Translations under genes and position numbers: made by a program
Notes under the pieces: model-generated
The model's database searches: none
Told to the model about the DNA's origin: nothing
Seen by the model: only the letters and a program-made list of their open reading frames with translations
Part shown: piece after piece, positions 2,599 through 54,133 of the stretch
Numbering within the stretch: the stretch's first letter is position 1
Layout of the letters: each line of letters starts with the position of its first letter
Assembly (NCBI GenBank): GCA_902618025.1
Contig: CACMYY010000006.1
Location: forward strand, 1-56,701
Direction of reading: 5' to 3'
DNA length: 56,701 nucleotides
DNA from: an uncultured SAR116 cluster alpha proteobacterium
GTDB lineage: Bacteria; Pseudomonadota; Alphaproteobacteria; Puniceispirillales; Marisalimonadaceae

Positions 2599-3771
2599 TT
2601 AAAAAAATTCTTTAATTCTAGAAATTGCCTCTTCAATCGCACTATCTGAACTCGCACAAGAGAATCTAACGTAACCCTCACCATACCTACCAAATGAAGT
2701 CCCAGCTACCGTAGCAACCCCTAATTTTTCTAATAAAAAGTCTTGAATTTCTGAAGAGTCCTTTTGAGTTCCAGATATGTTTGGAAAGCAATAAAATGCC
2801 CCGTTTGGTTTTTGACAGGAAAATCCATTTATTTCATTTAGTTTGCTGTACATTAGATTTGCGCGTCTTTTAAAATGATTATTCATTTCTGTTACACAAT
2901 TTTGAGGGCCGTTTAGAGCTTCTAAAGCTGCATATTGAGCACTTGCATTCACACATGAATGAATATTAACAGCAAGTTTTTCCGCAATTTTATATAATTT
3001 TTTAGGAAAAATTCCATAGCCTAAACGCCAGCCAGTCATGGCATATGTTTTTGACCATCCATTTAAAATTATAAGACGATCCCTTATTTCTGGAAAATTT
3101 AACATTGATGTAAATTTATTTTCACCAAAACAAAACTGGTCATAAATTTCATCACTCATTAGCACAACATCAGGAAAATTTTGTAAACCCATAGCTAATT
3201 TTTGCAATTCAGTTTTGGGAACTACTCCACCTGTTGGATTTGCAGGACTATTAATGATTATTAAGCTAGTATTCTTGTTAATCTTGTTTAATATTTCCTC
3301 AGATGAAAAAGAAAATCCTTTATCCTCACTTAATTGATAAGGAACAGATTTTGCACCAGTATAATTAATAGCTGATTCATATATTGGAAAACCAGGGTTT
3401 GGGTATAAAATTTCTTTGCCTCTTTCACCCATTAACATAGCAGCAAAAAAAATTATTACTTTTCCTCCAGGTACTATCATAATATTATCTGGTGAAATAT
3501 TTTCATTGTGTCTCCTATTTATATCATTTGAAACTGCTTCTCTTAAATTTGGGATTCCAATTGATTGTGTATAACCGTGATGACCATCTTTAAGTGCTTT
3601 GATACCTGCCTCAACAATATGTTCAGGAGTTTTAAAGTCTGGCTGACCAATTCCTAAATTAATAATATTTTTTCCTTCGGAAGCCAATCTAGTAGCCTTA
3701 GCCAAAACAGTAAAAGCAGTTTCAGTTCCAAGATTATAATTTCTAGATGCTAAATCATAATTACTTTTCAT
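2599..3771 (-). CDS. Class I/II pyridoxal-phosphate aminotransferase (aspartate aminotransferase-like)
   Basis: The product is 390 aa, fold-type I. The PLP-binding Lys is in NGWSKTYAMTGWRLGYG (about Lys241). The family NSPANPTGG motif and the SDEIYDQF strand (Asp contacting the PLP nitrogen) are present, and a C-terminal RFSCASS stretch supplies the carboxylate-binding Arg. It should exchange amino groups between amino acids and 2-oxo acids; the substrate cannot be fixed from sequence, although this subgroup is usually annotated as aspartate or aromatic aminotransferase. It is a minus-strand gene with its own spacers: 114 bases to glnB downstream and about 96 to tRNA-His upstream. Confidence 0.92.
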   Translation of the reverse strand: MKSNYDLASRNYNLGTETAFTVLAKATRLASEGKNIINLGIGQPDFKTPEHIVEAGIKALKDGHHGYTQSIGIPNLREAVSNDINRRHNENISPDNIMIVPGGKVIIFFAAMLMGERGKEILYPNPGFPIYESAINYTGAKSVPYQLSEDKGFSFSSEEILNKINKNTSLIIINSPANPTGGVVPKTELQKLAMGLQNFPDVVLMSDEIYDQFCFGENKFTSMLNFPEIRDRLIILNGWSKTYAMTGWRLGYGIFPKKLYKIAEKLAVNIHSCVNASAQYAALEALNGPQNCVTEMNNHFKRRANLMYSKLNEINGFSCQKPNGAFYCFPNISGTQKDSSEIQDFLLEKLGVATVAGTSFGRYGEGYVRFSCASSDSAIEEAISRIKEFF

Positions 3772-4147: not shown

Positions 4148-5575
4148 ATGGCTGTTAATCAAACTTTATCAAAAGGGCTTAAACGAGAATTTGAAGTAAT
4201 TATAACTAATAATGAAATAAATAAATTAGTTGATCAAAAACTTGAAACTATTGCAAAAGAAGCAAATTTGCCTGGTTTTAGACCAGGTAAAGTTCCTGTT
4301 GCTGTTGTTAAAAATAGGTTTGGCAAACAAGTTCTTGGAGAAGTCGTTAGAGAATCAGTTGATTCTGCAACTAAAGAAACGATGGAAAAGAATAAATTAA
4401 CACCTTCTTCTCAACCAAAAATTGAAATTGTATCCTTTGAAGAAGGAGAAGATTTAAAGGCAAAATTATCTGTTGAAATAATGCCTGATTTTGAAATACC
4501 TGATTTATCATTACTAGAAATAACTAAACCAATCGTTAAATTAAGTGAGAAAGATATTAATGAAGCTGTAGAAAAAATTGCTAAAGAAAATGTAGGAACT
4601 AAAGTCATTACTAAAAACAGACCTGCAAAAAAAGGCGATACTTTAGTAATTGATTTTATTGGTAAGATTGACGATAAACCATTTGAAGGTGGTGAAGCTA
4701 AAGGTCACAACTTAAAACTGGGTTCCAATACATTTATTCCGGGATTTGAAGAAGGGTTAATTGGATCCATTAAAGGAAAAACAAAATCTGTTAAAGTTAC
4801 CTTTCCCAAAGATTATCAAGCTAAAAGTCTAGCTAACAAAATTGCTGTCTTTGAAGTAACAATTAATGAAATTAAAGAAGATGTTGAGCATAAAATAAAT
4901 GATGAATTTGCTAAGACATTAGGTATGAATGATTTAAATGCACTAAAGAAAGCTGTTTCAGAGCAAATTACAAAACAGCATGATCAAGCAAGCCGAGAAA
5001 AAGCTAAAAGGCAAATACTAGATAAATTAGCTGATGCAGTATCCTTTGATTTACCAGAGACCCTAGAACAAGAAGAGTATAACAATATATGCAAAGCAAT
5101 GAATCCCAATTCTAAACCAGTTTCAGATAAGGCAGATCAGCCTGAACTAGAACCTGATAAAGGTATGTCAAAAGAAGAAAAAGTTGATGCTTCTGAAATA
5201 GCTAAAAGAAGGGTTAGGTTAGGACTTTTACTTTCTGAAATTGGAAGACAAAACGGTATTAAAGTAGAAGAGGATGATACTAGAAATGCAATGATGAGAG
5301 AGATACAAAAATATCCAGGACAAGAAAAACAAATTATGGAATATTTTAAGAATAACCCTCAGGCACAACAACAACTATCAGGACCAATATTTGAGGACAA
5401 AATAATTGATTTTATTTTGGAATTAGCAAAGGTTAATGAAAAAACAGTCTCCATTGATGATTTGTATAAGGATGACGATACAGATTTAAAAAAGGAAGCA
5501 TCAAAAGCAAAAAAATCAAACAAAATTGTTAAAAAAATAAAACAAAAAAAACCTAAAAAAACAACAAAAGTTTGA
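4148..5575 (+). CDS. tig: Trigger factor, ribosome-associated chaperone and prolyl isomerase
   Basis: The product is 475 aa from the ATG at 4148, with an AGAGG-type ribosome site about 10 bases before it. The open frame continues upstream through tRNA-Leu, but that extension is the translated tRNA and not protein. The N-terminal domain has the ribosome-docking motif GFRPGKVP. A central FKBP-type domain follows (GDTLVIDFIG, GSNTFIPGFEEGL), then a helical C-terminal chaperone domain. The tail is a lysine-rich low-complexity extension of about 40 residues (KKIKQKKPKK). It heads the conserved tig-clpP-clpX-lon protein quality-control block. Confidence 0.97.
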   Translation: MAVNQTLSKGLKREFEVIITNNEINKLVDQKLETIAKEANLPGFRPGKVPVAVVKNRFGKQVLGEVVRESVDSATKETMEKNKLTPSSQPKIEIVSFEEGEDLKAKLSVEIMPDFEIPDLSLLEITKPIVKLSEKDINEAVEKIAKENVGTKVITKNRPAKKGDTLVIDFIGKIDDKPFEGGEAKGHNLKLGSNTFIPGFEEGLIGSIKGKTKSVKVTFPKDYQAKSLANKIAVFEVTINEIKEDVEHKINDEFAKTLGMNDLNALKKAVSEQITKQHDQASREKAKRQILDKLADAVSFDLPETLEQEEYNNICKAMNPNSKPVSDKADQPELEPDKGMSKEEKVDASEIAKRRVRLGLLLSEIGRQNGIKVEEDDTRNAMMREIQKYPGQEKQIMEYFKNNPQAQQQLSGPIFEDKIIDFILELAKVNEKTVSIDDLYKDDDTDLKKEASKAKKSNKIVKKIKQKKPKKTTKV

Positions 5576-5610
5576 TCTAACAAAACATATTATATCTTAG
5601 GAGTTTCAAT

Positions 5611-6249
5611 ATGATAGAAAAAAAATATAATCCAACTTCTTTACATAATGAGATCGGTGCATTAGTGCCAATGGTAGTAGAGCAAACTAGCAGAGGTGAG
5701 AGATCTTACGATATTTATTCTAGGCTTTTAAAAGAAAGAATAATTTTTTTAGTAGGACCGGTGGATGATAATTTAGCTTCCTTAGTATGCGCTCAATTAT
5801 TATTTTTAGAAGCAGAGAACCCAAAAAAGGACATATCAATGTATATAAATTCACCTGGTGGAGTAGTAACTTCTGGATTATCTATATATGATACTATGGA
5901 GTATATTAGGCCTGATGTTTCAACTGTATGTATTGGTCAGGCTGCAAGTATGGGATCTTTATTATTAACTGCTGGAGCTACAAAAAAAAGATACTGTTTA
6001 CCAAACGCACGAATAATGACACATCAACCCTCTGGAGGTTTCCAAGGACAAGCTAGTGACATTGAAATTCATGCAAAAGAGATTATAAATTTAAGGTCAA
6101 GATTAAATGGTATTTACGTTAAACATTCTGGCAAGAAAATTGCAGATATTGAATCATTAATGGATAGGGATACTTTTTTATCGCCAGAGGATGCAGTTAA
6201 AATTGGTTTAATTGACGAAGTCGTTGGAAAAAGGCCCGAAGTTAAATAA
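5611..6249 (+). CDS. clpP: ATP-dependent Clp protease proteolytic subunit
   Basis: The product is 212 aa. The catalytic triad is visible: Ser113 in GQAASMGS, His138 in MTHQPSGG and Asp187 in DRDTFLS. The SPGG oxyanion-hole segment and the first-strand region are normal. The N-terminal sequence ahead of [11 protein letters not shown] is probably a short propeptide. ClpP forms the double heptameric chamber that works with ClpX, encoded next. An AGGAG ribosome site precedes the ATG. It lies 35 bases after tig in the same direction. Confidence 0.98.
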
Positions 6250-6329
6250 AAATAATGATATAATTATATTGCTTTTTAAAATAAACTTATAGATTATCAA
6301 AGTATATCAAAAAGTTTTGGGGTGTGACC

Positions 6330-7598
6330 ATGGATGAACAAAAAAATGAAGGAAAAAATAAAACAACCTTGTATTGTTCTTTTTGTGGTAAAAGTCAACA
6401 TGAAGTTAAAAAATTAATTGCCGGTCCTACAGTATTTATATGTGACGAATGCGTTGAACTCTGCATGGACATTATTAAAGAAGAGTATCAGTCTTCAATT
6501 ACAAAAAATAAAGAAGGAATTCCCTCTCCGGTTGAAATATGTAAAATTCTAGATGATTACGTTATTGGTCAAAATAAAGCCAAAAAAGTTCTTTCTGTTG
6601 CTGTTCATAATCATTACAAAAGGTTAGCTAATTTGACTGATGTGAATGACATAGAAATTTCAAAATCAAATATTCTTTTAGTAGGCCCAACCGGTTGTGG
6701 CAAAACATTATTAGCACAAACTTTAGCAAAAATATTAGATGTTCCTTTTACTATGGCGGATGCAACAACTCTAACTGAAGCTGGTTATGTAGGTGAGGAT
6801 GTTGAAAACATTATATTAAAATTATTACAAGCTTCTGATTATAATGTTGAAAGAGCACAAAAAGGGATTGTTTACATTGACGAAGTTGACAAAATTTCAA
6901 GAAAGTCAGAAAACCCCTCTATTACAAGAGATGTTAGTGGTGAGGGAGTACAACAAGCATTACTTAAAATTATGGAAGGTACAATAGCTGCAGTTCCTCC
7001 ACAAGGCGGAAGGAAACATCCTCAACAAGAGTTTCTTCAGGTAGATACAACTAATATCCTATTTATATGCGGTGGTGCTTTTGCAGGTTTAGATAAACTA
7101 ATTGCAAATAGAAACAAGGGATCTTCTATTGGATTTGGAGCTGAAATAGTGAATTCAAAGGAAACATCTTCCTCTGAAATTCTTAAGGATGTTGAACCAG
7201 GTGACTTAGTTAAATATGGTCTTATTCCAGAATTTATAGGTAGGTTGCCCGTTCTAGCATCATTAGAAGATCTTGATGAAGAGGCTTTAGTCACAATTTT
7301 AACCAAGCCTAAAAATGCTCTTTTGAAACAATATCAAAAATTATTTGAAATGGAAAATACTAAACTTGAATTTAGAGAAAACGCATTAAAAGCAATCGCA
7401 CAAAAAGCTATAAGTTTAAAAACAGGAGCAAGAGGTTTACGTTCTATAATCGAAAACATACTTATGGATACCATGTTTGAGTTACCCTCTGAACCTGACA
7501 TTAATGAAGTGGTTATTAATGAAGAGGTTATAACAAAAGGAACAAAGCCATTAATTGTGCACGAAAAAAAGACAAAAGAAATAAAAAATAATCTTTAA
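6330..7598 (+). CDS. clpX: ATP-dependent Clp protease ATP-binding subunit ClpX
   Basis: The product is about 422 aa. The N-terminal zinc-binding domain has the four-cysteine pattern CSFCG...CDECVELC. The AAA+ module has Walker A GPTGCGKT (about residues 119-126), Walker B VYIDEVDK, and the pore loop GYVGEDV. ClpX unfolds tagged substrates and feeds ClpP. A GTG two codons earlier (6324) could also start the frame. I chose the ATG at 6330 because the GGGG Shine-Dalgarno at 6319-6322 is seven bases from it and too close to the GTG. Confidence 0.97.
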
Positions 7599-7676
7599 AT
7601 TTTTTTGAACTTGAAGTTTAAAAAAAAAATATCATTTATAAAATAATCTATATTATAAATTTCTAAGGATATCATT

Positions 7677-10064
7677 TTGACTAGTCTTACACACCCCATC
7701 CTACCTTTAAGGGATATTGTAATATTCCCACACATGATTGCACCATTATTTGTTGGAAGAATCAAATCCATCAATGCTATTGAAACTGTCATGGAAGAAA
7801 ATAAAGATATTGTGTTACTTACACAAAAAAATTCTTCCACTGAAAACCCAAACTCAAAAGACCTTTTCAAAATAGGTACTTTAGGAACTATCCTTCAAAT
7901 GCTTAAGTTACCTGATGGTACAGTTAAGGTATTAGTAGAAGGAAAATACAGGTGTAAAATAGAAGAAATAATTTCTTCAGAAACTTGTCTAAGTGCAAAT
8001 TTAATTGTTTTGAAATCTGATACTATTTTCAAAAAAAACTATAATGATCTAACAGATCATTTGAGGAAATCTTTTGAAAATTTTTCTAAACTAAATAGCA
8101 AGATAAATTCTGATGTTTTATCAACAATCGCTGATTTGAAAGATCCGAGTGTTTTATCGGATACAATTGTAAATCATCTAGTATTTTCTATTGAAGACAA
8201 GCAGTCTTTTCTTGAAATGACTGATCCTATCGAGAGAGTAAAAACACTTACATCGAAAATTGAAAAAGAAATTGAGATACTTAGTTCTGAAAGAAAAATT
8301 AGAAGTTCTGTTAAAAAACAGATGGAAAAAACACAAAGAGAATATTATTTAAACGAACAATTAAAAGCTATTCAAAAAGAATTAGGCACATCCGAGGATG
8401 GTAAAAATGAATTTGATGAGTTTGAAGATAAAATTAATAAAGGAAAATTGAGCAAAGAAGCTAAAGATAAAGCGTTATCAGAGTTAAAAAAATTAAAAAA
8501 TATGAGCCCAATGAGTGCTGAAGCTACTGTAGTGAGATCATATATTGATTGGTTAGTTTCAATACCTTGGAAGAAAACTAACAAGTTAAAAAATGATATA
8601 TTCAATGCAAGAAAGATCCTAGATAATGATCACTATGGGTTAGAAAAAGTTAAAGACAGAATTATAGAATATTTAGCTGTGCAGAAAAGAACTAAAGAAG
8701 TAAAAGGTCCAATTTTGTGTTTGGTTGGTCCCCCCGGCGTGGGAAAGACTTCTCTAGGTAAATCTATAGCAGATGCTACAGGTAGGCAATACATCAGAAT
8801 GGCTTTAGGTGGCGTTAGAGATGAAGCAGAAATAAGAGGACATCGGAGAACATACATTGGGTCTCTACCGGGTAAAATTATACATGGTATGAAAAAGTCA
8901 TCCTCAATAAATCCATTATTTTTGTTGGATGAAATAGATAAACTAGGTAATGATTATAGAGGTGATCCTTCTTCAGCATTATTAGAAGTTTTAGATCCAG
9001 AACAAAATAAAACTTTTCAAGATCACTATCTTGAAGTTGATTATGATTTATCAAAGGTATTTTTTATTACGACTTCAAACACTCTTAATATGCCTCAAGC
9101 ATTGTTAGATAGAATGGAAATAATCAGATTATCAGGGTATACAGAAGATGAAAAATTAGAGATTGCTAAAAGACACCTGTTAAAAAAACAAATTGACAAT
9201 TGTAAACTTAAGGACGATGAATTTTCAATAAGTGATGATGCTTTAAAAATGATAATTCAATCATATACAAGAGAAGCAGGCGTAAGAAACTTAGAAAGAC
9301 AACTTGCTAAACTAACCAGAAAAGTTGTTACACTTTTAGAAAAAAAAGAAGTTAAAACAATTTCTATTACAAAAAACAATTTAGTTGAAATTTTAGGTGT
9401 CCCTATTTTCCAAAGGTTAGAAATAGAAAACACAGATCTTATTGGTATTACTACTGGACTTGCATGGACCGAAGTTGGTGGCGAATTGTTGTCAATAGAA
9501 GCTGTTAAAGTCAAAGGCAAAGGTAAGGTAACAGCTACGGGAAAGCTTGGGAGTGTTATGAAGGAATCAGTCCAAGCTGCTGAATTTTATATAAGATCTA
9601 AAGCATATTCATTTGGATTAGATCCTTTTGATATAGAAAAACTTGATATTCATGTACATGTTCCTGAAGGTGCAACCCCAAAGGATGGTCCTTCTGCTGG
9701 TGTTGCTATGGTTACAAGTATCGTTTCAGCCTTGACAGATATAAAAGTTAAAAGCTCGATTGGTATGACTGGTGAAATTACTTTAAGAGGTAGGGTTCTT
9801 CCTATTGGAGGTTTGAAAGAAAAACTCTTAGCAGCTAAAAGGGGTGGAATCAAAACAGTATTAATACCCGTAGATAACAAAAAAGACCTTGTCGAAATAC
9901 CTAATAATATTTTAAACAAATTAAAAATAATTCCAGTTAATTCTATAGATGAAGTTATTTCAAATGCTTTAGTCACAACTCCACAAGAGTTAAATATGTT
10001 AGATGCTAGTAAAATAACTAAAAATGAAATTGAAAATCCTGATAAAAGTAGTATTTCACATTAA
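7677..10064 (+). CDS. lon: ATP-dependent protease La (Lon)
   Basis: The product is 795 aa, typical for LonA. It starts with TTG at 7677, supported by AAGGAT eight bases upstream and by the conserved PILPLRDIV start of the N-terminal domain soon after. Walker A is GPPGVGKT (351-358), and Walker B lies in LFLLDEIDK. The C-terminal protease domain has the Ser-Lys dyad: Ser673 in KDGPSAG and, by spacing from E. coli Lon, Lys716 in GGLKEK. It degrades misfolded and regulatory proteins. Its place after clpX and before hupB is the classic alphaproteobacterial order. Confidence 0.98.
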   Translation: MTSLTHPILPLRDIVIFPHMIAPLFVGRIKSINAIETVMEENKDIVLLTQKNSSTENPNSKDLFKIGTLGTILQMLKLPDGTVKVLVEGKYRCKIEEIISSETCLSANLIVLKSDTIFKKNYNDLTDHLRKSFENFSKLNSKINSDVLSTIADLKDPSVLSDTIVNHLVFSIEDKQSFLEMTDPIERVKTLTSKIEKEIEILSSERKIRSSVKKQMEKTQREYYLNEQLKAIQKELGTSEDGKNEFDEFEDKINKGKLSKEAKDKALSELKKLKNMSPMSAEATVVRSYIDWLVSIPWKKTNKLKNDIFNARKILDNDHYGLEKVKDRIIEYLAVQKRTKEVKGPILCLVGPPGVGKTSLGKSIADATGRQYIRMALGGVRDEAEIRGHRRTYIGSLPGKIIHGMKKSSSINPLFLLDEIDKLGNDYRGDPSSALLEVLDPEQNKTFQDHYLEVDYDLSKVFFITTSNTLNMPQALLDRMEIIRLSGYTEDEKLEIAKRHLLKKQIDNCKLKDDEFSISDDALKMIIQSYTREAGVRNLERQLAKLTRKVVTLLEKKEVKTISITKNNLVEILGVPIFQRLEIENTDLIGITTGLAWTEVGGELLSIEAVKVKGKGKVTATGKLGSVMKESVQAAEFYIRSKAYSFGLDPFDIEKLDIHVHVPEGATPKDGPSAGVAMVTSIVSALTDIKVKSSIGMTGEITLRGRVLPIGGLKEKLLAAKRGGIKTVLIPVDNKKDLVEIPNNILNKLKIIPVNSIDEVISNALVTTPQELNMLDASKITKNEIENPDKSSISH

Positions 10065-10169
10065 TTAATTTACTTTTTTATTTTATTGATAATTATTAGC
10101 TTTATTTTCTAGAGTTATAGGGTAGTATCAGTAAATTAATACTAATATTAACTTATTATGGAGGTACGA

Positions 10170-10445
10170 ATGAATAAGAATGAATTAGTTGCAAGTGTTG
10201 CTGACGCATCAGGTCTTTCAAAAGTAGATGCTGCAAAAGCAGTTGATGGAGTTTTTGAGTCAATCACCGGTGCTTTAAAATCAGGTGGTGACGTGCGTAT
10301 AGTTGGTTTTGGAACTTTTTCTGTTGCTAACCGTGCCGCTACTACAGGTAGAAATCCTAGAACAGGTGAAACAATTCAAATTAAAGCATCTAAGCAACCT
10401 AAATTTAAGGCTGGAAGTCCCTTAAAGGATGCTGTAAATAACTAG
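10170..10445 (+). CDS. hupB: HU-type DNA-binding protein
   Basis: The product is 91 aa with the HU/IHF fold, including the DNA-contacting arm GRNPRTGETI and GFGTFSV. The in-frame ATG at 10158 is rejected because the GGAGG ribosome site (10160-10164) overlaps it and sits correctly for the ATG at 10170. Base composition is richer in GC than its neighbours, common for highly expressed genes in AT-rich genomes. It ends at a strong terminator. Confidence 0.97.
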   Translation: MNKNELVASVADASGLSKVDAAKAVDGVFESITGALKSGGDVRIVGFGTFSVANRAATTGRNPRTGETIQIKASKQPKFKAGSPLKDAVNN

Positions 10446-10470
10446 ATTACAAATTAAAAATTTTTAAATT

Positions 10471-10498
10471 GGCGTCTTATTTCATAAGGCGCCTTTTT
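10471..10498 (+). terminator. Rho-independent terminator of hupB
   Basis: GGCGTCTTAT pairs with ATAAGGCGCC (one T-G wobble) around a three-base loop, followed by six T. It lies 26 bases after the hupB stop. The converging methyltransferase gene ends inside this hairpin, so that gene's last codons and the terminator share sequence. Confidence 0.92.
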
Positions 10499-10997
10499 TA
10501 AAACAGGCCCTCTGCTTAATCGTAATTTTACCATAATTTAATATTCCTTCATAAAAACTTACTGGTAAAAGTTTTTTTCCAAATATTTCTAATAACTCTC
10601 CTTCTTTTAGTAAGAAATTTGGGTTTTGGGGTGAACCGTATTTTTCATTTCCTTCAGAAAAAGTTTCGTAAAATAAAAATCCATCTTTTTTTAGTAAATT
10701 TATTAATTTATTAATTTTAGGCCTATGTAGATAATTAATTACTATAATCACGTCATAATATTCTTTAACTAATGGCCATTTTTCATTACTTTCAAGATCA
10801 AAACAAATTGCGTTTATATTTTTCAAATTTTTATATTTATTTAGTTTTTCTTGATCTTTATCAACCGCTGTTACGATAATATTTTTGTTTGCTAATGGAA
10901 TACAATTTCTACCATTCCCAGACGCAAAATCTAAGAGATTTATTTTTTTCTTAATTTCCAAAGCTTCTATTTGATTTAAAATCCATTCGGAGTGCAA
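10482..10997 (-). CDS. Small class I SAM-dependent methyltransferase
   Basis: The product is 171 aa. It starts MHSEWILNQIE and shows the SAM-binding motif I LLDFASGNGRN, motif II-like VTAVDKD, and a later YDVIIVINYL strand. The overall look is that of the TehB-like or methyltransf_11/25 group. The substrate is unknown. It converges on hupB, and its stop codon falls within the hupB terminator stem. The upstream neighbour (tRNA-Val) is on the opposite strand, so it must have its own promoter. Confidence 0.75.
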   Translation of the reverse strand: MHSEWILNQIEALEIKKKINLLDFASGNGRNCIPLANKNIIVTAVDKDQEKLNKYKNLKNINAICFDLESNEKWPLVKEYYDVIIVINYLHRPKINKLINLLKKDGFLFYETFSEGNEKYGSPQNPNFLLKEGELLEIFGKKLLPVSFYEGILNYGKITIKQRACFKKGAL

Positions 10998-11087
10998 AAA
11001 AATTTCCTAATTTTAAAATTATATTTATTAAATTAATAATTAACTTATTGTCTTTGTAAAAAAAATTACGTATAAATTCCCACATAA

Positions 11088-11163
11088 GGGCGGTTAGCTC
11101 AGTTGGTAGAGCATCTCGTTTACACCGAGAGGGTCGGCGGTTCGAGACCGTCACCGCCCACCA
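11088..11163 (+). tRNA. tRNA-Val (TAC)
   Basis: A complete cloverleaf with encoded CCA. The acceptor stem is GGGCGGT/ACCGCCC. The anticodon stem TCTCG/CGAGA encloses loop TTTACAC, which reads TAC. The T arm is GGCGG-TTCGAGA-CCGTC. Confidence 0.97.
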
Positions 11164-12776: not shown

Positions 12777-13601
12777 TTAATTATCTAATAATGATTTAGC
12801 CAAACCGAGTAAAGCTAATTTATAATTAGGATGTTTAAATTTGTAACTAATCTTATTATTAATAATTCTACTTTTCACAGTCCTATTTACTTCATAGAAG
12901 GATTTTAACATTTGAGAAACTTTTTTAGGATCATATCTTATAATTTCTGGACTTACTAAATTTAATTCATTACAAACGAATTTTATTGCATCATAATTAC
13001 TTACTTTACTTTGATCACTTATATTTAAAATTTTTTCAGTGCAGTTATTTTCTATAAATTGAAGAGTTAATGAAGACAAGTCCTCTACATGTATTCTATT
13101 AGACACGTAATCCTTTTTGACAATGATTTTATTATCTCCTTGGAGATATTTGATCATAGGGTGTCTATTCGGGCCGTAAATACCTGATATTCTGAAGATC
13201 GTTGCCTTTGAATTTGCTTCAATCCATTCTTTTTCGCAGCTAAGTCTCTTTAAACCTCTTTTATATTTAGGTGATGGAATTGAATCCTCATTAACTATTC
13301 CACTTCCATATACAGATGTAGCGGAATAATAAATGATGATGTTCTCGTTTAAAGAAATTGATTTTTTGTATTTATTTAAAACAGGATCCAAACCTTCTTC
13401 ATTAAATGGCACAGTTGAAATAACATTTTCATTAGCTAATTTTTTTTCAACATTACGAGTATCAGAGAAATTTAAATAATGTATATTTTTTTTAGGATTT
13501 GAAATATTTCTTGTAATTATAGATATTTCATAGCCCGCCTTTAGAGCATCCGCAGCTAAAAACTGTGTTGTATATCCATTTCCAACGATAGTTAATTTCA
13601 T
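12777..13601 (-). CDS. NAD(P)-dependent epimerase/dehydratase-like protein (YeeZ type)
   Basis: The product is 274 aa, extended SDR fold. The dinucleotide motif is the variant GNGYTT at 7-12. The active-site strand reads YYSATSVYG with Tyr98, but no Lys follows in a YxxxK arrangement. RISGIYGP is the typical substrate-side motif of the family. The closest remembered family is the YeeZ/SDR_a5-like group of unknown substrate. Its start is near the cobalamin riboswitch on the opposite strand, so the promoters diverge from the 13602-13661 spacer. Confidence 0.72.
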   Translation of the reverse strand: MKLTIVGNGYTTQFLAADALKAGYEISIITRNISNPKKNIHYLNFSDTRNVEKKLANENVISTVPFNEEGLDPVLNKYKKSISLNENIIIYYSATSVYGSGIVNEDSIPSPKYKRGLKRLSCEKEWIEANSKATIFRISGIYGPNRHPMIKYLQGDNKIIVKKDYVSNRIHVEDLSSLTLQFIENNCTEKILNISDQSKVSNYDAIKFVCNELNLVSPEIIRYDPKKVSQMLKSFYEVNRTVKSRIINNKISYKFKHPNYKLALLGLAKSLLDN

Positions 13602-13661
13602 TACATTAAAATTTTTTTTGCTTGCTTTTATAATTTAAATATTTTCATAATTAATTGTTTA

Positions 13662-13835
13662 TGGTGCTTTGAAGACTTCTTCAAGCTTAAAATGGGAATT
13701 TGGTAATTTATCAGAATTATAAGCCAAAGCTGTCCCCGCAACTGTAAATGCTGAGTAAGGGCAATTATGCCACTGGAAATTTTCTGGGAAGGCTGCCTAA
13801 GCTGTGAAGCATAAGCCAGGAGACCTGCCATAGAT
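13662..13835 (+). promoter_or_regulatory. Cobalamin (AdoCbl) riboswitch
   Basis: The aptamer core is clear. GGGAATTTGGT is followed by the AAGCTGTCCCCGCAACTGTAA box, then GCCACTGG, GGGAAGGC, and the closing AGCCAGGAGACCTGCC. It lies about 110 bases before the TonB receptor gene on the same strand. The spacer holds a 6-bp pair GTCGCT (13837-13842) with AGCGAC (13891-13896). It also holds a short hairpin GAGC-CTTG-GCTC followed by TTT near 13907-13921 and an AGGAGG ribosome site at 13935-13940. Whether control is by termination or by ribosome access cannot be settled by eye. Confidence 0.95.
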
Positions 13836-13945
13836 TGTCGCTTTGTCAGCTTCCGGGTAGAGTAGATGGCACGTGTTATATTTATCGTCTAGCGACTAAA
13901 TTACTTGAGCCTTGGCTCTTTAACTTACTTTGCTAGGAGGTCAAT

Positions 13946-15910
13946 ATGGCATACTTAATTTTGATAATATCGTTTTTTTTCAATATATTTAACTCTTTTG
14001 CTAATGACGAAAAACCTATTCGCATTACAATATATCCTTCAATGATTGAAAGAGGTGTAGTTGGCAGTTCTACTAAAATAATAAATTACAAAACTATTAG
14101 TAATTCATCATATAAAACTCTTGGTGATTTATTATCAAAATATTCAGGGATTTTTTTTGAAAATTTATACTATGGGATGGATGCAAAATCAACAGTAAGA
14201 ATGAGAGGTTTTGGAGAGCAAGCATCGAGAAATATTATGATACTTGTAGATGGAATTCGTTTATCTGACATGACTATTGCAGGTGCAAATTTATCTAGAA
14301 TTCCAATAGATAATATTTATGAAATTCAAATTTTAAAAGGTGGATCTTCGACTGTTATTCATGGAGATGGAGCTGTTGGTGGATCAATCAATATTATTAC
14401 AAAAAATCCTAAGTATTTGGAAGACGAAGTTAATATTAAATCATCTATTAAATCTTTTAGCTCTAAAGAAAATTCTGTTTCAATTAATAAAAATATAAAC
14501 AATTTTGTCTTTCAAACTTTTGCATCAAGGAGTGACAGCAAAGGTTATCGAGAAAATAATAAGTTTGAAAATGATACATTTCAATTCAATTTATCTTTTT
14601 TAAAAGATCCTCTAACCAGATATTCTGCCAGTCTTAATTATTCTGAAGAATATACTGGATTACCAGGAAGTATAACATTGTCCGACTTTTATACTCGTCC
14701 TAGATTTGTAAGATCAGGCTCTATAGACAGTTTTGCAGAAGAAAAAATTCATTCATGGAAGTTAAATAATGAGAAAAAATTCACAAGAGGAAAAACCTTA
14801 ACAACTTTAAAGTATGAAGAAAAAGATCAAAAAACTTCATCGATGTATAGTGGGGTGAACATTAAAGCAAAAACTGACTTGAGCACATACACTTTGGGCT
14901 CCAAATTAAATAAAAAATTTATTAATAATGATCTTAATGTGGACGCTAATTTTGGTATTGATCATTATAATTCAACTTATAGAGCCATAGGTAACAATTG
15001 GGCTGGCACTCCATATTACAACATTGCTTCTCAAAAAATAGTTGAACCGTTTGCTTTAATCAAATTCTCAAATACAAAGAATTCTAATATTCAATATGAG
15101 GCTGGTTTCAGACAACATTACTATGATTTAGATGCGGACAATTATACCAACAAAAGTAGTTTATTATCTCGGGTAAGACAAAATTATGCTTGGTCATTGG
15201 GTTTTAATTATATTATAGACAATAATAGAAACTTCTTTGGACATATTTCAAGGTCATTCAGATCACCAAGATTAGACGAAATTATTTCTTTAGTTAGTCC
15301 TAATCCGACATCTACTGATATTAAACATCAATATTCCCATGATATTGAAATTGGTCATAAAATAAAAGTAAATGACTCAAATTATAATATAGCTTTATAT
15401 AGATCACTTATTAAAAATCAGATTGTCTATAATTCGGCTGCATTTGCTAACCAAAATTTTGATCCCTCTATTCAGCAAGGTGTAGAATTAGAATTTGACA
15501 CATTAATAAATCCAAATTTTAAATTTGTTTCTAATGTAAATTATATTGATTCTCATTTCACTGAAGGCGTTGAAAAAGGTAACGAAACACCTTACGTCCC
15601 CAAATTATCTGGGAATACTTCCTTATATTTCAATTTTGACAAACAAACTGATTTCTCAGTTAATTATAAGTATATTGGTAAGAAAAGATCTGGTAATGAT
15701 CCAAATTATATTTTGCCTAAATCTAAGTCTTATCAGGTTGTGGATTTTAATATTAATTACAAAATAAAAAATTTTACTATTAAAGGATCAGTAAATAATT
15801 TATTAAATAAAACATATTATACAAATTTAATAAAAAGTTGGGATAATAAAGCTTATGTTTATCCACAACCTGGAAGAACTTTGTTTTTAGGTATAGAGGC
15901 AAAATTTTAA
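13946..15910 (+). CDS. btuB: TonB-dependent outer-membrane receptor, probable cobalamin receptor
   Basis: The product is 654 aa. A signal peptide of about 20 residues ends near NSFANDEKP. The plug domain (about 45-160) has TVRMRGFGEQASRNIMILVDG and the GAVGGSINIIT motif that closes it. The rest is an aromatic-rich beta-barrel ending in LGIEAKF, with the terminal Phe needed for outer-membrane insertion. The cobalamin riboswitch in its leader makes B12 or a corrinoid the likely ligand. No clear Ton box is recognised. A strong AGGAGG site precedes the ATG. It is followed by the DUF6580-type gene 44 bases downstream. Confidence 0.92.
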   Translation: MAYLILIISFFFNIFNSFANDEKPIRITIYPSMIERGVVGSSTKIINYKTISNSSYKTLGDLLSKYSGIFFENLYYGMDAKSTVRMRGFGEQASRNIMILVDGIRLSDMTIAGANLSRIPIDNIYEIQILKGGSSTVIHGDGAVGGSINIITKNPKYLEDEVNIKSSIKSFSSKENSVSINKNINNFVFQTFASRSDSKGYRENNKFENDTFQFNLSFLKDPLTRYSASLNYSEEYTGLPGSITLSDFYTRPRFVRSGSIDSFAEEKIHSWKLNNEKKFTRGKTLTTLKYEEKDQKTSSMYSGVNIKAKTDLSTYTLGSKLNKKFINNDLNVDANFGIDHYNSTYRAIGNNWAGTPYYNIASQKIVEPFALIKFSNTKNSNIQYEAGFRQHYYDLDADNYTNKSSLLSRVRQNYAWSLGFNYIIDNNRNFFGHISRSFRSPRLDEIISLVSPNPTSTDIKHQYSHDIEIGHKIKVNDSNYNIALYRSLIKNQIVYNSAAFANQNFDPSIQQGVELEFDTLINPNFKFVSNVNYIDSHFTEGVEKGNETPYVPKLSGNTSLYFNFDKQTDFSVNYKYIGKKRSGNDPNYILPKSKSYQVVDFNINYKIKNFTIKGSVNNLLNKTYYTNLIKSWDNKAYVYPQPGRTLFLGIEAKF

Positions 15911-15954
15911 TAAAATTATTGTTTTTAATAGCTGATGTGGTTTAAATAAGCATT

Positions 15955-16467
15955 ATGGATAAAAAAAATATAATAAAAAATTTCTTATTATTTTTGGGAT
16001 GTGTAGGTGTAATTTTATTGTTTCGAATTATTCCTCATCCTCCTAATTTTACTCCAGTTATTGCATTGAGTTTTTACTTACCTTTATTTTTTGGGTTATG
16101 GAGCATTCCTTTCATAATATTAGCTTTTGCAACAACAGATTATTTTATTGGTTTTCATAACTTATTAATTTGGACATGGGGTAGTTTGGCAATTATTGGA
16201 ATGATTTCAAAATATGGTATGAATTTCTACTCAAGATTTGGAATGTGTATAATAGGATCGTTATTGTTTTTTGTTATTTCAAATTTTGGAGTATGGCTTA
16301 CTGGTTCATTATATGAAACAACCATAAATGGCTTAATAAGCTGTTACGTTATGGCAATACCATTTTTTACAAATACATTACTTAGCACAATTATTTTTTG
16401 CCTTTTAATAGAGTTTTTGGTTTTTTCTAAATATTTTAATTTTGTCCCTCAAATATTAAAAAAATAG
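15955..16467 (+). CDS. DUF6580-type integral membrane protein, candidate inner-membrane cobalamin carrier
   Basis: The product is 170 aa with about five hydrophobic segments. The family-like motif HPPNFTPVIAL sits near residue 28, and a TTDYFIGFHNLLIWTWGS segment follows. The size and the HPPNFTP start resemble the DUF6580 family, whose proteins look like substrate-binding (S) components of ECF transporters; this comes from memory, not a search. It lies 44 bases after the BtuB-like gene and is probably under the same riboswitch. No BtuC, BtuD or ECF ATPase is in the window. A role in moving cobalamin across the inner membrane is inferred from context. Confidence 0.7.
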   Translation: MDKKNIIKNFLLFLGCVGVILLFRIIPHPPNFTPVIALSFYLPLFFGLWSIPFIILAFATTDYFIGFHNLLIWTWGSLAIIGMISKYGMNFYSRFGMCIIGSLLFFVISNFGVWLTGSLYETTINGLISCYVMAIPFFTNTLLSTIIFCLLIEFLVFSKYFNFVPQILKK

Positions 16468-16555: not shown

Positions 16556-16632
<77 letters not shown>

Positions 16633-52345: not shown

Positions 52346-53284
52346 CTATGGCTTCGCAAAAGTTTCTACTTTTGTAATTTTTTTAATAATCCGCTTTTTT
52401 TCTAAAAACTTACTAAAATTTGTGTAGGTTTTTAAATCATGTGCTTGTGGCCTTAGAGCAAACCTAGAAATCGTGTCTTTGTAAGCTCTTTTATTTAATT
52501 CATCATCTAAACCTTTTCTGTAAGATGAAAAGTCTTTCCACGTAGAAACTGGGTCATTAATAATTGTTAAAGTAGCCTTTTGAATTGCACTAAAAAATTT
52601 ATCAAAAAGTGGGTTGTTCTTATTCTTTTGATTTGCAATGTATATCAATTCTTCATAAGTTGGCACGCCATGCTCCTCTGGATAGAAAGCTCTACCCGGA
52701 TGATTAACAATGTCCATTTGATTGAGCTCAAAATTTCTAAAAGCTCCAATAACTGCATCAACCTTCTTTGCTATTAAAGAGGGTGACAATGAGAAGTTAA
52801 TATTCACTAAATCTACATCAGACATATTAAGGTTATATTTTTGAAGCATTCCAGAGAGTAAGGCTTCTTCAAATCCACCTACTGAAAATCCAACTTTCTT
52901 TCCTTTGAGGTCTGAAATTGTCTTAATAGGCCCATCTTTTAAGACAACTAGTGAATTTAGCGGAACACTAACTAAAGTTCCAACTCTTACTACAGGTAAA
53001 CCCTGGTCAACTTGAATGTGTAATTGTGGTTGATATGAAATTGCTAAGTCTAATTTACCAGCAGCTACTAATTTTGGCGGATCATTCGGATCAGCTGGTT
53101 CAATCATCTCAACTTCAAGGTTAAGATCTCTAAAAAAATTTCTTTTCTTAGCTATTATTAAAGGAGCATGATCAGGATTGATAAACCAATCAAGTCCTAT
53201 AGTTAACTTTTGAGATGAAGCGCTGACATTAAAAGTAAATGTTAAAAGTAAAAAACTTAAAATTATTTTGAATATTTTGTTCAT
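52346..53284 (-). CDS. thiY: Periplasmic binding protein for a thiamine pyrimidine precursor (ThiY/NMT1-like)
   Basis: The product is 312 aa. A signal peptide (about 1-22) ends near VSASS. GLDWFINPDHAPLIIAKKR and LDLAISYQPQLH are typical of the ThiY/NMT1 family, which binds FAMP or HMP. Its leader is a TPP riboswitch whose 3' edge holds the ribosome site, so thiamine status controls its translation. An ABC permease gene lies just upstream, but no ATPase gene is adjacent. Confidence 0.92.
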   Translation of the reverse strand: MNKIFKIILSFLLLTFTFNVSASSQKLTIGLDWFINPDHAPLIIAKKRNFFRDLNLEVEMIEPADPNDPPKLVAAGKLDLAISYQPQLHIQVDQGLPVVRVGTLVSVPLNSLVVLKDGPIKTISDLKGKKVGFSVGGFEEALLSGMLQKYNLNMSDVDLVNINFSLSPSLIAKKVDAVIGAFRNFELNQMDIVNHPGRAFYPEEHGVPTYEELIYIANQKNKNNPLFDKFFSAIQKATLTIINDPVSTWKDFSSYRKGLDDELNKRAYKDTISRFALRPQAHDLKTYTNFSKFLEKKRIIKKITKVETFAKP

Positions 53285-53287
53285 CTG

Positions 53288-53367
53288 CGTCTCCCTCCGC
53301 TGGTTTTAACCAGATCAGGTTATAAGGGTTAATTTCTCAGCAAGACGAATGTCAAGCACCCCTGGCA
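53288..53367 (-). promoter_or_regulatory. TPP (thiamine pyrophosphate) riboswitch
   Basis: Read on the minus strand, the conserved parts appear in order: GGGGTGC, GCTGAGA, an ACCC segment, then ACCTGATCTGG and CCAGCGGAGGGA. The thiY ATG follows the aptamer by fewer than ten bases. The GGAGGGAG of the aptamer's own 3' strand is the only ribosome site available, so ligand binding should block translation directly. The outer helix P1 looks short. Confidence 0.95.
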
Positions 53368-53407
53368 AATTATTTTTATAACAAATATTGAAAAAATCAA
53401 TAATATT

Positions 53408-54133
53408 TTATTTCCACCATACATATCTGCTAAGAACATAATCTGTAATTTTATAAATTGTAATGGTCATAAAAATAAGAATTAATAGAGCAGCAAACAT
53501 GTTATCAGTTTGTAATCTGGCATTACTGTATATCATAAATGAACCAAGCCCTGTGCTTCCACCTATCCATTCTCCTACAACTGCACCAATTGGGGCAAAG
53601 CAAGCAGCAACCCGAAGCCCAGAACATAATCCAGGTAAAGAAGATGGAATTTTAATTTTCCAGAACAATTGAATTTTAGAGAGGTTTAACGTTTTACCGG
53701 CATCAATTAGTTCTTGAGGAACTTTATTTAAGGCATCTGTGAAGTTTGATGTAATTGGGAAAAAAACTATCAAAACTCCAATTACTATTTTGCTGATCAT
53801 TCCATAACCAAGCCATAAAATTAACAATGGTGCCAATGCAAAAACTGGAATTGATTGGCTGGCAAGCAATATAGGCATTATCCATCTTTTTAATGTGACC
53901 GAAGAAGAAATTATCAAAGCTGTTGTTATTCCAATTAAAGAGCCAATTGCTATAGATGCTAATATTTCAACTAGCGTATATGATGCGTGAACTATGAGTT
54001 CCTCCCAGTTAACGTAAATTGATGCAAATACTTTTGATGGAGGAGGGAGCATAAATACAGGTAAATTAAAAAATGAACAGCTTATTTCCCATAAAACAAA
54101 AATAGTTGTTGCAATTAATATTCCTCTAACCAT
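53408..54133 (-). CDS. ABC transporter permease (ThiX/SsuC type)
   Basis: The product is 241 aa with about six membrane segments. The EAA-type loop contacting the ATPase reads DAGKTLNLSKIQLFWKIKIPSSLPGL (its edges: DAGKTLN and PSSLPGL). It belongs to the permease group that serves NMT1-like, taurine and aliphatic sulfonate binding proteins. The neighbouring thiY suggests pyrimidine-precursor uptake. It lies upstream of the TPP riboswitch, so that element does not control it. AAAGG lies before the ATG. Confidence 0.9.
   Translation of the reverse strand: MVRGILIATTIFVLWEISCSFFNLPVFMLPPPSKVFASIYVNWEELIVHASYTLVEILASIAIGSLIGITTALIISSSVTLKRWIMPILLASQSIPVFALAPLLILWLGYGMISKIVIGVLIVFFPITSNFTDALNKVPQELIDAGKTLNLSKIQLFWKIKIPSSLPGLCSGLRVAACFAPIGAVVGEWIGGSTGLGSFMIYSNARLQTDNMFAALLILIFMTITIYKITDYVLSRYVWWK

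Follow-up and report, generated by a model that had tools for sequence, protein, structure and literature searches.

Only some of the routes by which bacteria move cobalamin (vitamin B12) across the inner membrane use the ATP-binding cassette (ABC) importer BtuCDF. According to the sections of the BtuM study that treat distribution (PMC6072759), only about half of cobalamin auxotrophs are predicted to have BtuCDF, and many BtuB-bearing Gram-negative bacteria lack it. The same sections describe BtuM as a solitary cobalamin transporter, in which one invariant cysteine (Cys80 in loop L3) ligates cobalt. CbrT, the S-component of the energy-coupling factor (ECF) transporter ECF-CbrT of Lactobacillus, binds cobalamin and cobinamide (PMC5997447; PDB 6FNP). 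Some BioY proteins function without an ECF module, as stated in a passage of PMC11109136. Here, we describe a stretch of 56,701 nucleotides (positions 1 to 56,701 of contig CACMYY010000006.1, assembly GCA_902618025.1; hereafter the window) from an uncultured SAR116 cluster alphaproteobacterium, in which a cobalamin riboswitch, a gene for a TonB-dependent receptor, and a gene for a DUF6580 (PF20221) protein follow one another on the forward strand. With a probability of roughly 0.8, this unit is a cobalamin-scavenging operon of a B12-requiring bacterium, in which the DUF6580 protein would act as a corrinoid transporter with the S-component fold. An inner-membrane cobalamin carrier had been suggested by the first-pass annotation, and the suggestion is supported by the predicted fold, a match to CbrT, linkage to riboswitches, and the absence of the B12-synthesis marker CbiC.

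The riboswitch stands before the receptor gene as first described, except that it starts at 13645 rather than 13662 (Table 1). It is the sole cobalamin riboswitch detected in the source genome (G000; 1.55 Mb, 75% complete), whose nearest named relatives are SAR116 genomes. The DUF6580 gene follows the receptor gene after 44 bases, also as described, and a tRNA lies downstream at 16556. A terminator between the two genes was rejected, as the single terminator-like site is upstream, at 13551. A second promoter there was likewise rejected, as promoter-like sites (23) are not commoner than in shuffled sequences (20.8, standard deviation 4.7). Because there is neither an intergenic terminator nor such an excess of promoter-like sites, the two genes are likely co-transcribed. 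The hairpin predicted around the ribosome-binding site of the receptor gene has a fold z-score of −1.4, matched by 17 of 200 shuffles, which is weak; translational control is possible. Two observations predict a B12 requirement in the source bacterium: a methylmalonyl-CoA mutase is encoded (1197 bits against a cut-off of 876), and no CbiC was detected in the 75%-complete genome. MetH was rejected as the B12 user of SAR116, since its activation domain (PF02965) is found in none of 121 genomes of the order. Methionine synthesis in the order may therefore use another enzyme or another reactivation.

Among these 121 genomes, which include the source genome, DUF6580 was found in 46 and a cobalamin riboswitch in 88, the latter with stricter filters that may have lost weak riboswitches. 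In 41 of the 46 carriers, the DUF6580 match is 1.90–2.16 kb downstream of a cobalamin riboswitch and shares its strand. In G073, DUF6580 is at the start of a contig that does not carry the riboswitch, and in G120, an assembly with 7% contamination, the DUF6580 match spans only 129 bases and no riboswitch was matched. Of the 52 genomes in the window's own family, 12 have neither element; these are mostly incomplete, although G016 reaches 90% completeness. Fisher tests on these tables ignore kinship among the genomes. For the comparison beyond the order, 45 related loci were retrieved and one with a 78-base partial match (L046) was dropped; four of the remaining 44 (L002–L005) are SAR116. In 25 of the 44, the gene is preceded on its own strand by a cobalamin-class riboswitch (24 RF00174 and one AdoCbl-II, in L007 of Pelagibacteraceae). 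By record title, these linked loci include Ignavibacteria, Bacteroidetes, Kryptoniota, Rokubacteria, Legionellales, other Gammaproteobacteria, Rhizobiales, and Omnitrophota. Chance placement of the riboswitches is ruled out by these linkages inside and outside the order. The first-pass annotation had named a complete btuCDF together with no tendency of DUF6580 genes to sit behind B12 riboswitches as the contrary outcome, and this combination was not found. Its view of a carrier special to streamlined marine bacteria does not hold, as DUF6580 occurs in genomes of many phyla.

The predicted structure of the DUF6580 protein (predicted local distance difference test, pLDDT, 90.1) has six long helices, not the five first counted, arranged in the topology of ECF S-components. 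The nearest fold by Z score is BioY (14.7). When PDB sequences were searched with DUF6580 family profiles (hmmsearch), the sole match was the cobalamin-specific S-component CbrT (E 0.004, weak); the two profiles that found it are nested (28 of the 44 sequences), hence not independent, and were run without a reversed-sequence control. The resemblance to S-components noted from the sequence is thus upheld. The HPPNFTP motif reported there is present as part of a longer motif, PHPPNFTP, which contains the invariant N31. Eight residues are invariant among 74 distinct sequences from 78 loci (R24, N31, N110, Y120, C130, Y131, P136, and F137). Among them, Cys130 (74/74) is predicted to lie near the periplasmic end, at the start of helix 6. 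Lysine plus arginine per sequence averages 1.0 at the N-terminus, 1.6 in L2, 2.3 in L4, and 2.6 at the C-terminus, compared with 0.1 in L3 and 0.5 in L5; the value of 1.0 in L1 is explained by R24. Because these residues favor the termini, L2, and L4 over L3 and L5, a cytoplasmic location is probable for both termini, with the conserved patches (L1, L5, the beginning of helix 6, and the ends of helices 3 and 5) probably facing the periplasm, the side on which S-components bind their ligand. One sequence with an overlong start (L042) was omitted from the structure alignment. We take the NCBI pipeline name for members of the family to be 'putative transport protein'.

Eight further loci have another B12 link adjoining DUF6580 (Table 1), the weakest being that of L006. 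In L029, of a member of Flavobacteriaceae, B12 import may be adjusted to the demand for methionine, because a SAM-II (S-adenosylmethionine) riboswitch, rather than a cobalamin riboswitch, directly precedes DUF6580 and a split MetH follows. The DUF5074 protein of L018, the only one of the three (L015, L018, and L035) that was compared, has its best matches in chains of 8p97, 8p98, and 8blw, which we take to be BtuB-BtuG complexes, partly from BtuB names among the receptor-profile matches. In the Patescibacteria-type genomes of L012, L025, and L038, a gene for DUF4430, presumably a transcobalamin-like domain, precedes DUF6580 and lies beside one for a B12-dependent ribonucleotide reductase (RNR) or adenosyltransferase. 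EcfT (PF02361) has no match in these three genomes (G131, G144, and G157), and DUF4430 with DUF6580 would be a possible two-protein B12 uptake system. In the part of PMC1796856 that concerns it, the transcobalamin-like clade has a proposed role in B12 scavenging and is usually paired with CbiO and CbiQ. A periplasmic binding protein adjoins DUF6580 in L040 and L041, where genes were scanned, and, by layout only, in L042 and L044.

The receptor of the window probably fills the BtuB role. A Plug domain is present in 26 of 27 receptor candidates upstream of DUF6580 genes (the window and 26 loci), and a profile of these candidates matches BtuB best (317 bits). The model of the window receptor (pLDDT 79.7) has the TonB-receptor fold, which many TonB receptors match about equally, and FhuA and BtuB match the gammaproteobacterial receptor of L028 about equally. 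Receptor identity was therefore set aside as proof of the ligand. Under the proposed mechanism, low cellular adenosylcobalamin would let the riboswitch permit expression, and the receptor would move the corrinoid into the periplasm. The DUF6580 protein would bind the corrinoid from the periplasmic side, using L1, L3, L5, and the beginning of helix 6, and would then transfer it through the inner membrane in the manner of BtuM and solitary BioY, with no ECF module. The least certain step is the cobalt ligand, which could be Cys130, by analogy with Cys80 of BtuM, or His28 of the PHPPNFTP loop; a role for Cys130 is suggested only tentatively. That DUF6580 is an inner-membrane corrinoid transporter appears very likely, and that it acts without an ECF module is favored with less assurance. 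The family as a whole probably consists of such stand-alone transporters.

Several observations weigh against this assignment. Transport and binding are deduced from sequence, genomic context, and predicted structure. In G002, G010, and G014, DUF6580 lies within 2.7 kb of a riboswitch but is convergent with it and thus outside its transcript; in G002 (L097), a TonB-like gene also lies between the receptor and DUF6580. Seven of the 44 loci (L009, L011, L013, L019, L021, L024, and L043) have no B12 link among the genes scanned. The best Foldseek E value for the DUF6580 model is only 0.12, and the CbrT match (20–22 bits) covers the first half of the protein alone. The window receptor scores 100.6 bits against TIGR01779 (TonB-B12), far under the equivalog cut-off of 599.7, and as a single sequence its best PDB match is the YncD/PQQ (pyrroloquinoline quinone) receptor rather than BtuB. 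Genes of other transport systems also count against it. EcfT has a match in 8 of 43 panel genomes; the panel consists of the source genome and the genomes behind the loci other than L042, L044, and L046, which were left out of the panel searches for EcfT, FecCD, and CbiC. FecCD (PF01032, the BtuC type) at 60 bits or more is present in 12 of the 46 carriers and 17 of the 75 non-carriers, so that there is no overall exclusion and a strict alternation is weakened. Finally, SbmA/BacA is encoded in 100 of the 121 order genomes, B12 makers included.

The EcfT matches, together with the S-component fold and the similarity to CbrT, would suit an ordinary ECF S-component whose module is too divergent for detection. 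This explanation is unlikely, given that EcfT was found in none of the 121 order genomes, compared with 10 of 14 control genomes, and that 35 of the 43 panel genomes have no match. The usual ECF mechanism would have no motor in the order, because EcfT was not found there. For the same reason, and because BtuM and some BioY proteins work without a module, solitary transport is favored. Of the two options first raised, a carrier working alone or with a shared module, the former stands and a shared ECF module was rejected.

CbiC was found in 41 of the order genomes, namely one of the 46 carriers (G120) versus 40 of the 75 others. It was found in none of 42 genomes behind the related loci (L042 and L044 left out), four of which (G121–G124) seem, by coordinates, to be repeats of order genomes. 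These counts bear on the idea that DUF6580 is an accessory to B12 use that moves cobalt, the lower-ligand base, or a related compound, while the corrinoid enters through another permease. As CbiC is missing from carriers, cobalt for corrin synthesis should be unneeded in them, and the DUF6580 gene adjoins TonB receptors and BtuG-like and DUF4430 proteins, which makes an accessory role improbable. Twenty stretches were taken from order genomes without DUF6580, and genes were scanned in five. Behind the riboswitch are HupE, CobW, and CobN in L077, CobW and CobN in L090, CbtA in L096, and a receptor, then a periplasmic binding protein and FecCD, in L082 and L092. G045, of the same genus as the window, has CbiC, CobW, and CobN without DUF6580, with CobW-CobN behind its riboswitch. 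Thus, B12 synthesis, a receptor with BtuCDF-like genes, and a receptor with DUF6580 look like alternative fittings.

It is more improbable still that SbmA/BacA, or a cluster of FecCD, DUF1636, and CobW, performs the inner-membrane step and DUF6580 merely assists. SbmA/BacA occurs in all 43 near-complete genomes, and a mycobacterial protein likewise named BacA moves cobalamin, according to a part of PMC10960864. However, SbmA/BacA is equally frequent in near-complete genomes with CbiC, comparison of positions by eye revealed none within 50 kb of a cobalamin riboswitch, and it was not found in the 75%-complete source genome. In G004, FecCD, DUF1636, CobW, and a periplasmic binding protein form one cluster; that of G020 is similar as judged by gene sizes only. 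A further SAR116 stretch (L098) holds FecCD, a binding protein, an unscanned gene about the size of one for an ABC ATPase, DUF1636, a CobW-like gene, and a gene for a WD40 protein, with no cobalamin riboswitch nearby. Five order genomes, none of them DUF6580 carriers, have FecCD no more than 8 kb from a cobalamin riboswitch, although contig ends limit this count, and FecCD at 60 bits or more is lacking in six of the eight near-complete carriers. Lower-scoring matches were taken as remote ABC relatives, a threshold of our own; above the family cut-off of 26.5, PF01032 is found in 49 of the 121 order genomes and 7 of the 43 panel genomes, and at 60 bits or more in 4 panel genomes, all SAR116. 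The absence of BtuC and ECF partners first noted in the window extends to the rest of the source genome, about a quarter of which is missing, where neither FecCD nor EcfT was matched. Among carriers generally, a BtuC-type permease is not always absent, and where present it is away from the riboswitch. A membrane sensor of periplasmic B12 is highly improbable: receptors with S-component-like folds exist, as a section of PMC11109136 indicates, but the window protein model has no additional cytoplasmic domain and no kinase is among the neighbor genes scanned.

Table 1. Features of the window and of related loci discussed in the text.
Locus	Feature	Position	Strand	Evidence or neighbors
Window	Cobalamin riboswitch aptamer RF00174	13645–13846	+	cmscan, full model 1–189, 117.9 bits (gathering score 31.5), E 5.5e-29
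Window	Ribosome-binding site AGGAGG of receptor gene	13935–13940	+	Sequence; within predicted hairpin
Window	TonB-dependent outer-membrane receptor, 654 amino acids	13946–15910	+	Plug 57.6 bits, barrel 110.1 bits
Window	DUF6580 protein, 170 amino acids	15955–16467	+	PF20221, 102.5 bits (Pfam gathering cut-off 27)
Window	NMT1/THI5-like binding protein	52346–53284		
Window	Thiamine pyrophosphate (TPP) riboswitch	53275–53373	−	
Window	ABC permease	53408–54133		
L006	DUF6580			B12-binding radical SAM protein
L012	DUF6580			B12-dependent RNR, BtuR, DUF4430
L015	DUF6580			DUF5074, receptor
L016	DUF6580			Receptor, MetH
L025	DUF6580			AdoCbl-dependent RNR-like protein (281.6 bits, under cut-off 340), DUF4430
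L029	SAM-II riboswitch	5836–5894		Before DUF6580, then split MetH
L035	DUF6580			DUF5074, periplasmic binding protein
L038	DUF6580			PduO-type adenosyltransferase, DUF4430
L017	PF01902 'diphthamide synthase' type gene	2835–3749		
L027	PF01902 'diphthamide synthase' type gene	6539–7204		
L098	FecCD-DUF1636-CobW-like region	5289–11115		

Elsewhere in the window, the TPP riboswitch near 53 kb and its two neighbors form a probable unit for uptake of a thiamine precursor. In the distant genomes of L027 and L017, a PF01902 gene lies beside the riboswitch-receptor-DUF6580 unit. In addition, five gammaproteobacterial or proteobacterial loci (L027, L028, L030, L031, and L032) have an S-adenosylhomocysteine (SAH) riboswitch on the opposite strand upstream of the B12 unit, at about 1.2–1.8 kb (−).

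In the open-access literature searched, no paper names DUF6580 or PF20221, and none on B12 transport identifies DUF6580 as a B12 transporter; subscription papers, preprints, and supplements were outside this scope. The parts of a SAR116 pangenome report that concern cobalamin (PMC12262181) describe transport in some subclades without synthesis and name no DUF6580-like protein. The S-component fold and the use of a lone S-component for B12 are already known, while the role and distribution of DUF6580 and its association with BtuG-like and DUF4430 proteins appear to be new. If the assignment is true, a family found in 46 of 121 genomes of a marine order and in many phyla would fill part of the BtuCDF gap, B12 auxotrophy could be better predicted in ocean bacteria and Patescibacteria, and a second family would become available for the question of ATP-independent transport by a lone S-component. 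The odds seem about even for a broader proposal, in which DUF6580 would be a further independent solution to inner-membrane B12 import besides BtuCDF, BtuM, and ECF-CbrT: an ATPase-free lone S-component whose invariant cysteine binds cobalamin on the periplasmic side, used by B12 auxotrophs among SAR116, Legionellales, Ignavibacteria, Bacteroidetes, and Patescibacteria, and paired with TonB receptors or, where an outer membrane is presumed absent, with the transcobalamin-like DUF4430.

Compared with the known systems, DUF6580 resembles BtuM in its small six-helix S-component fold, the frequent proximity of its gene to that of a TonB receptor, its occurrence in hosts lacking EcfT, and a single invariant cysteine near the periplasmic face. 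It differs in that the cysteine is in L3 in BtuM but near the start of helix 6 in DUF6580, and its transport function is deduced. Moreover, the profile searches of PDB sequences returned no chain named BtuM at E values up to 10; BtuM is also not among the fold matches listed for the model, which excludes nothing. With CbrT, DUF6580 has in common an R..PN..PV pattern after helix 1, but CbrT uses an ECF module, and its matched stretch belongs to PF12822 rather than PF20221. Solitary BioY, the nearest in fold, transports biotin rather than a corrinoid and belongs to a separate sequence family. BtuCDF is a multi-part ABC importer of another fold; a periplasmic binding protein and FecCD fill the place of DUF6580 behind the riboswitch and receptor in sister SAR116 genomes.
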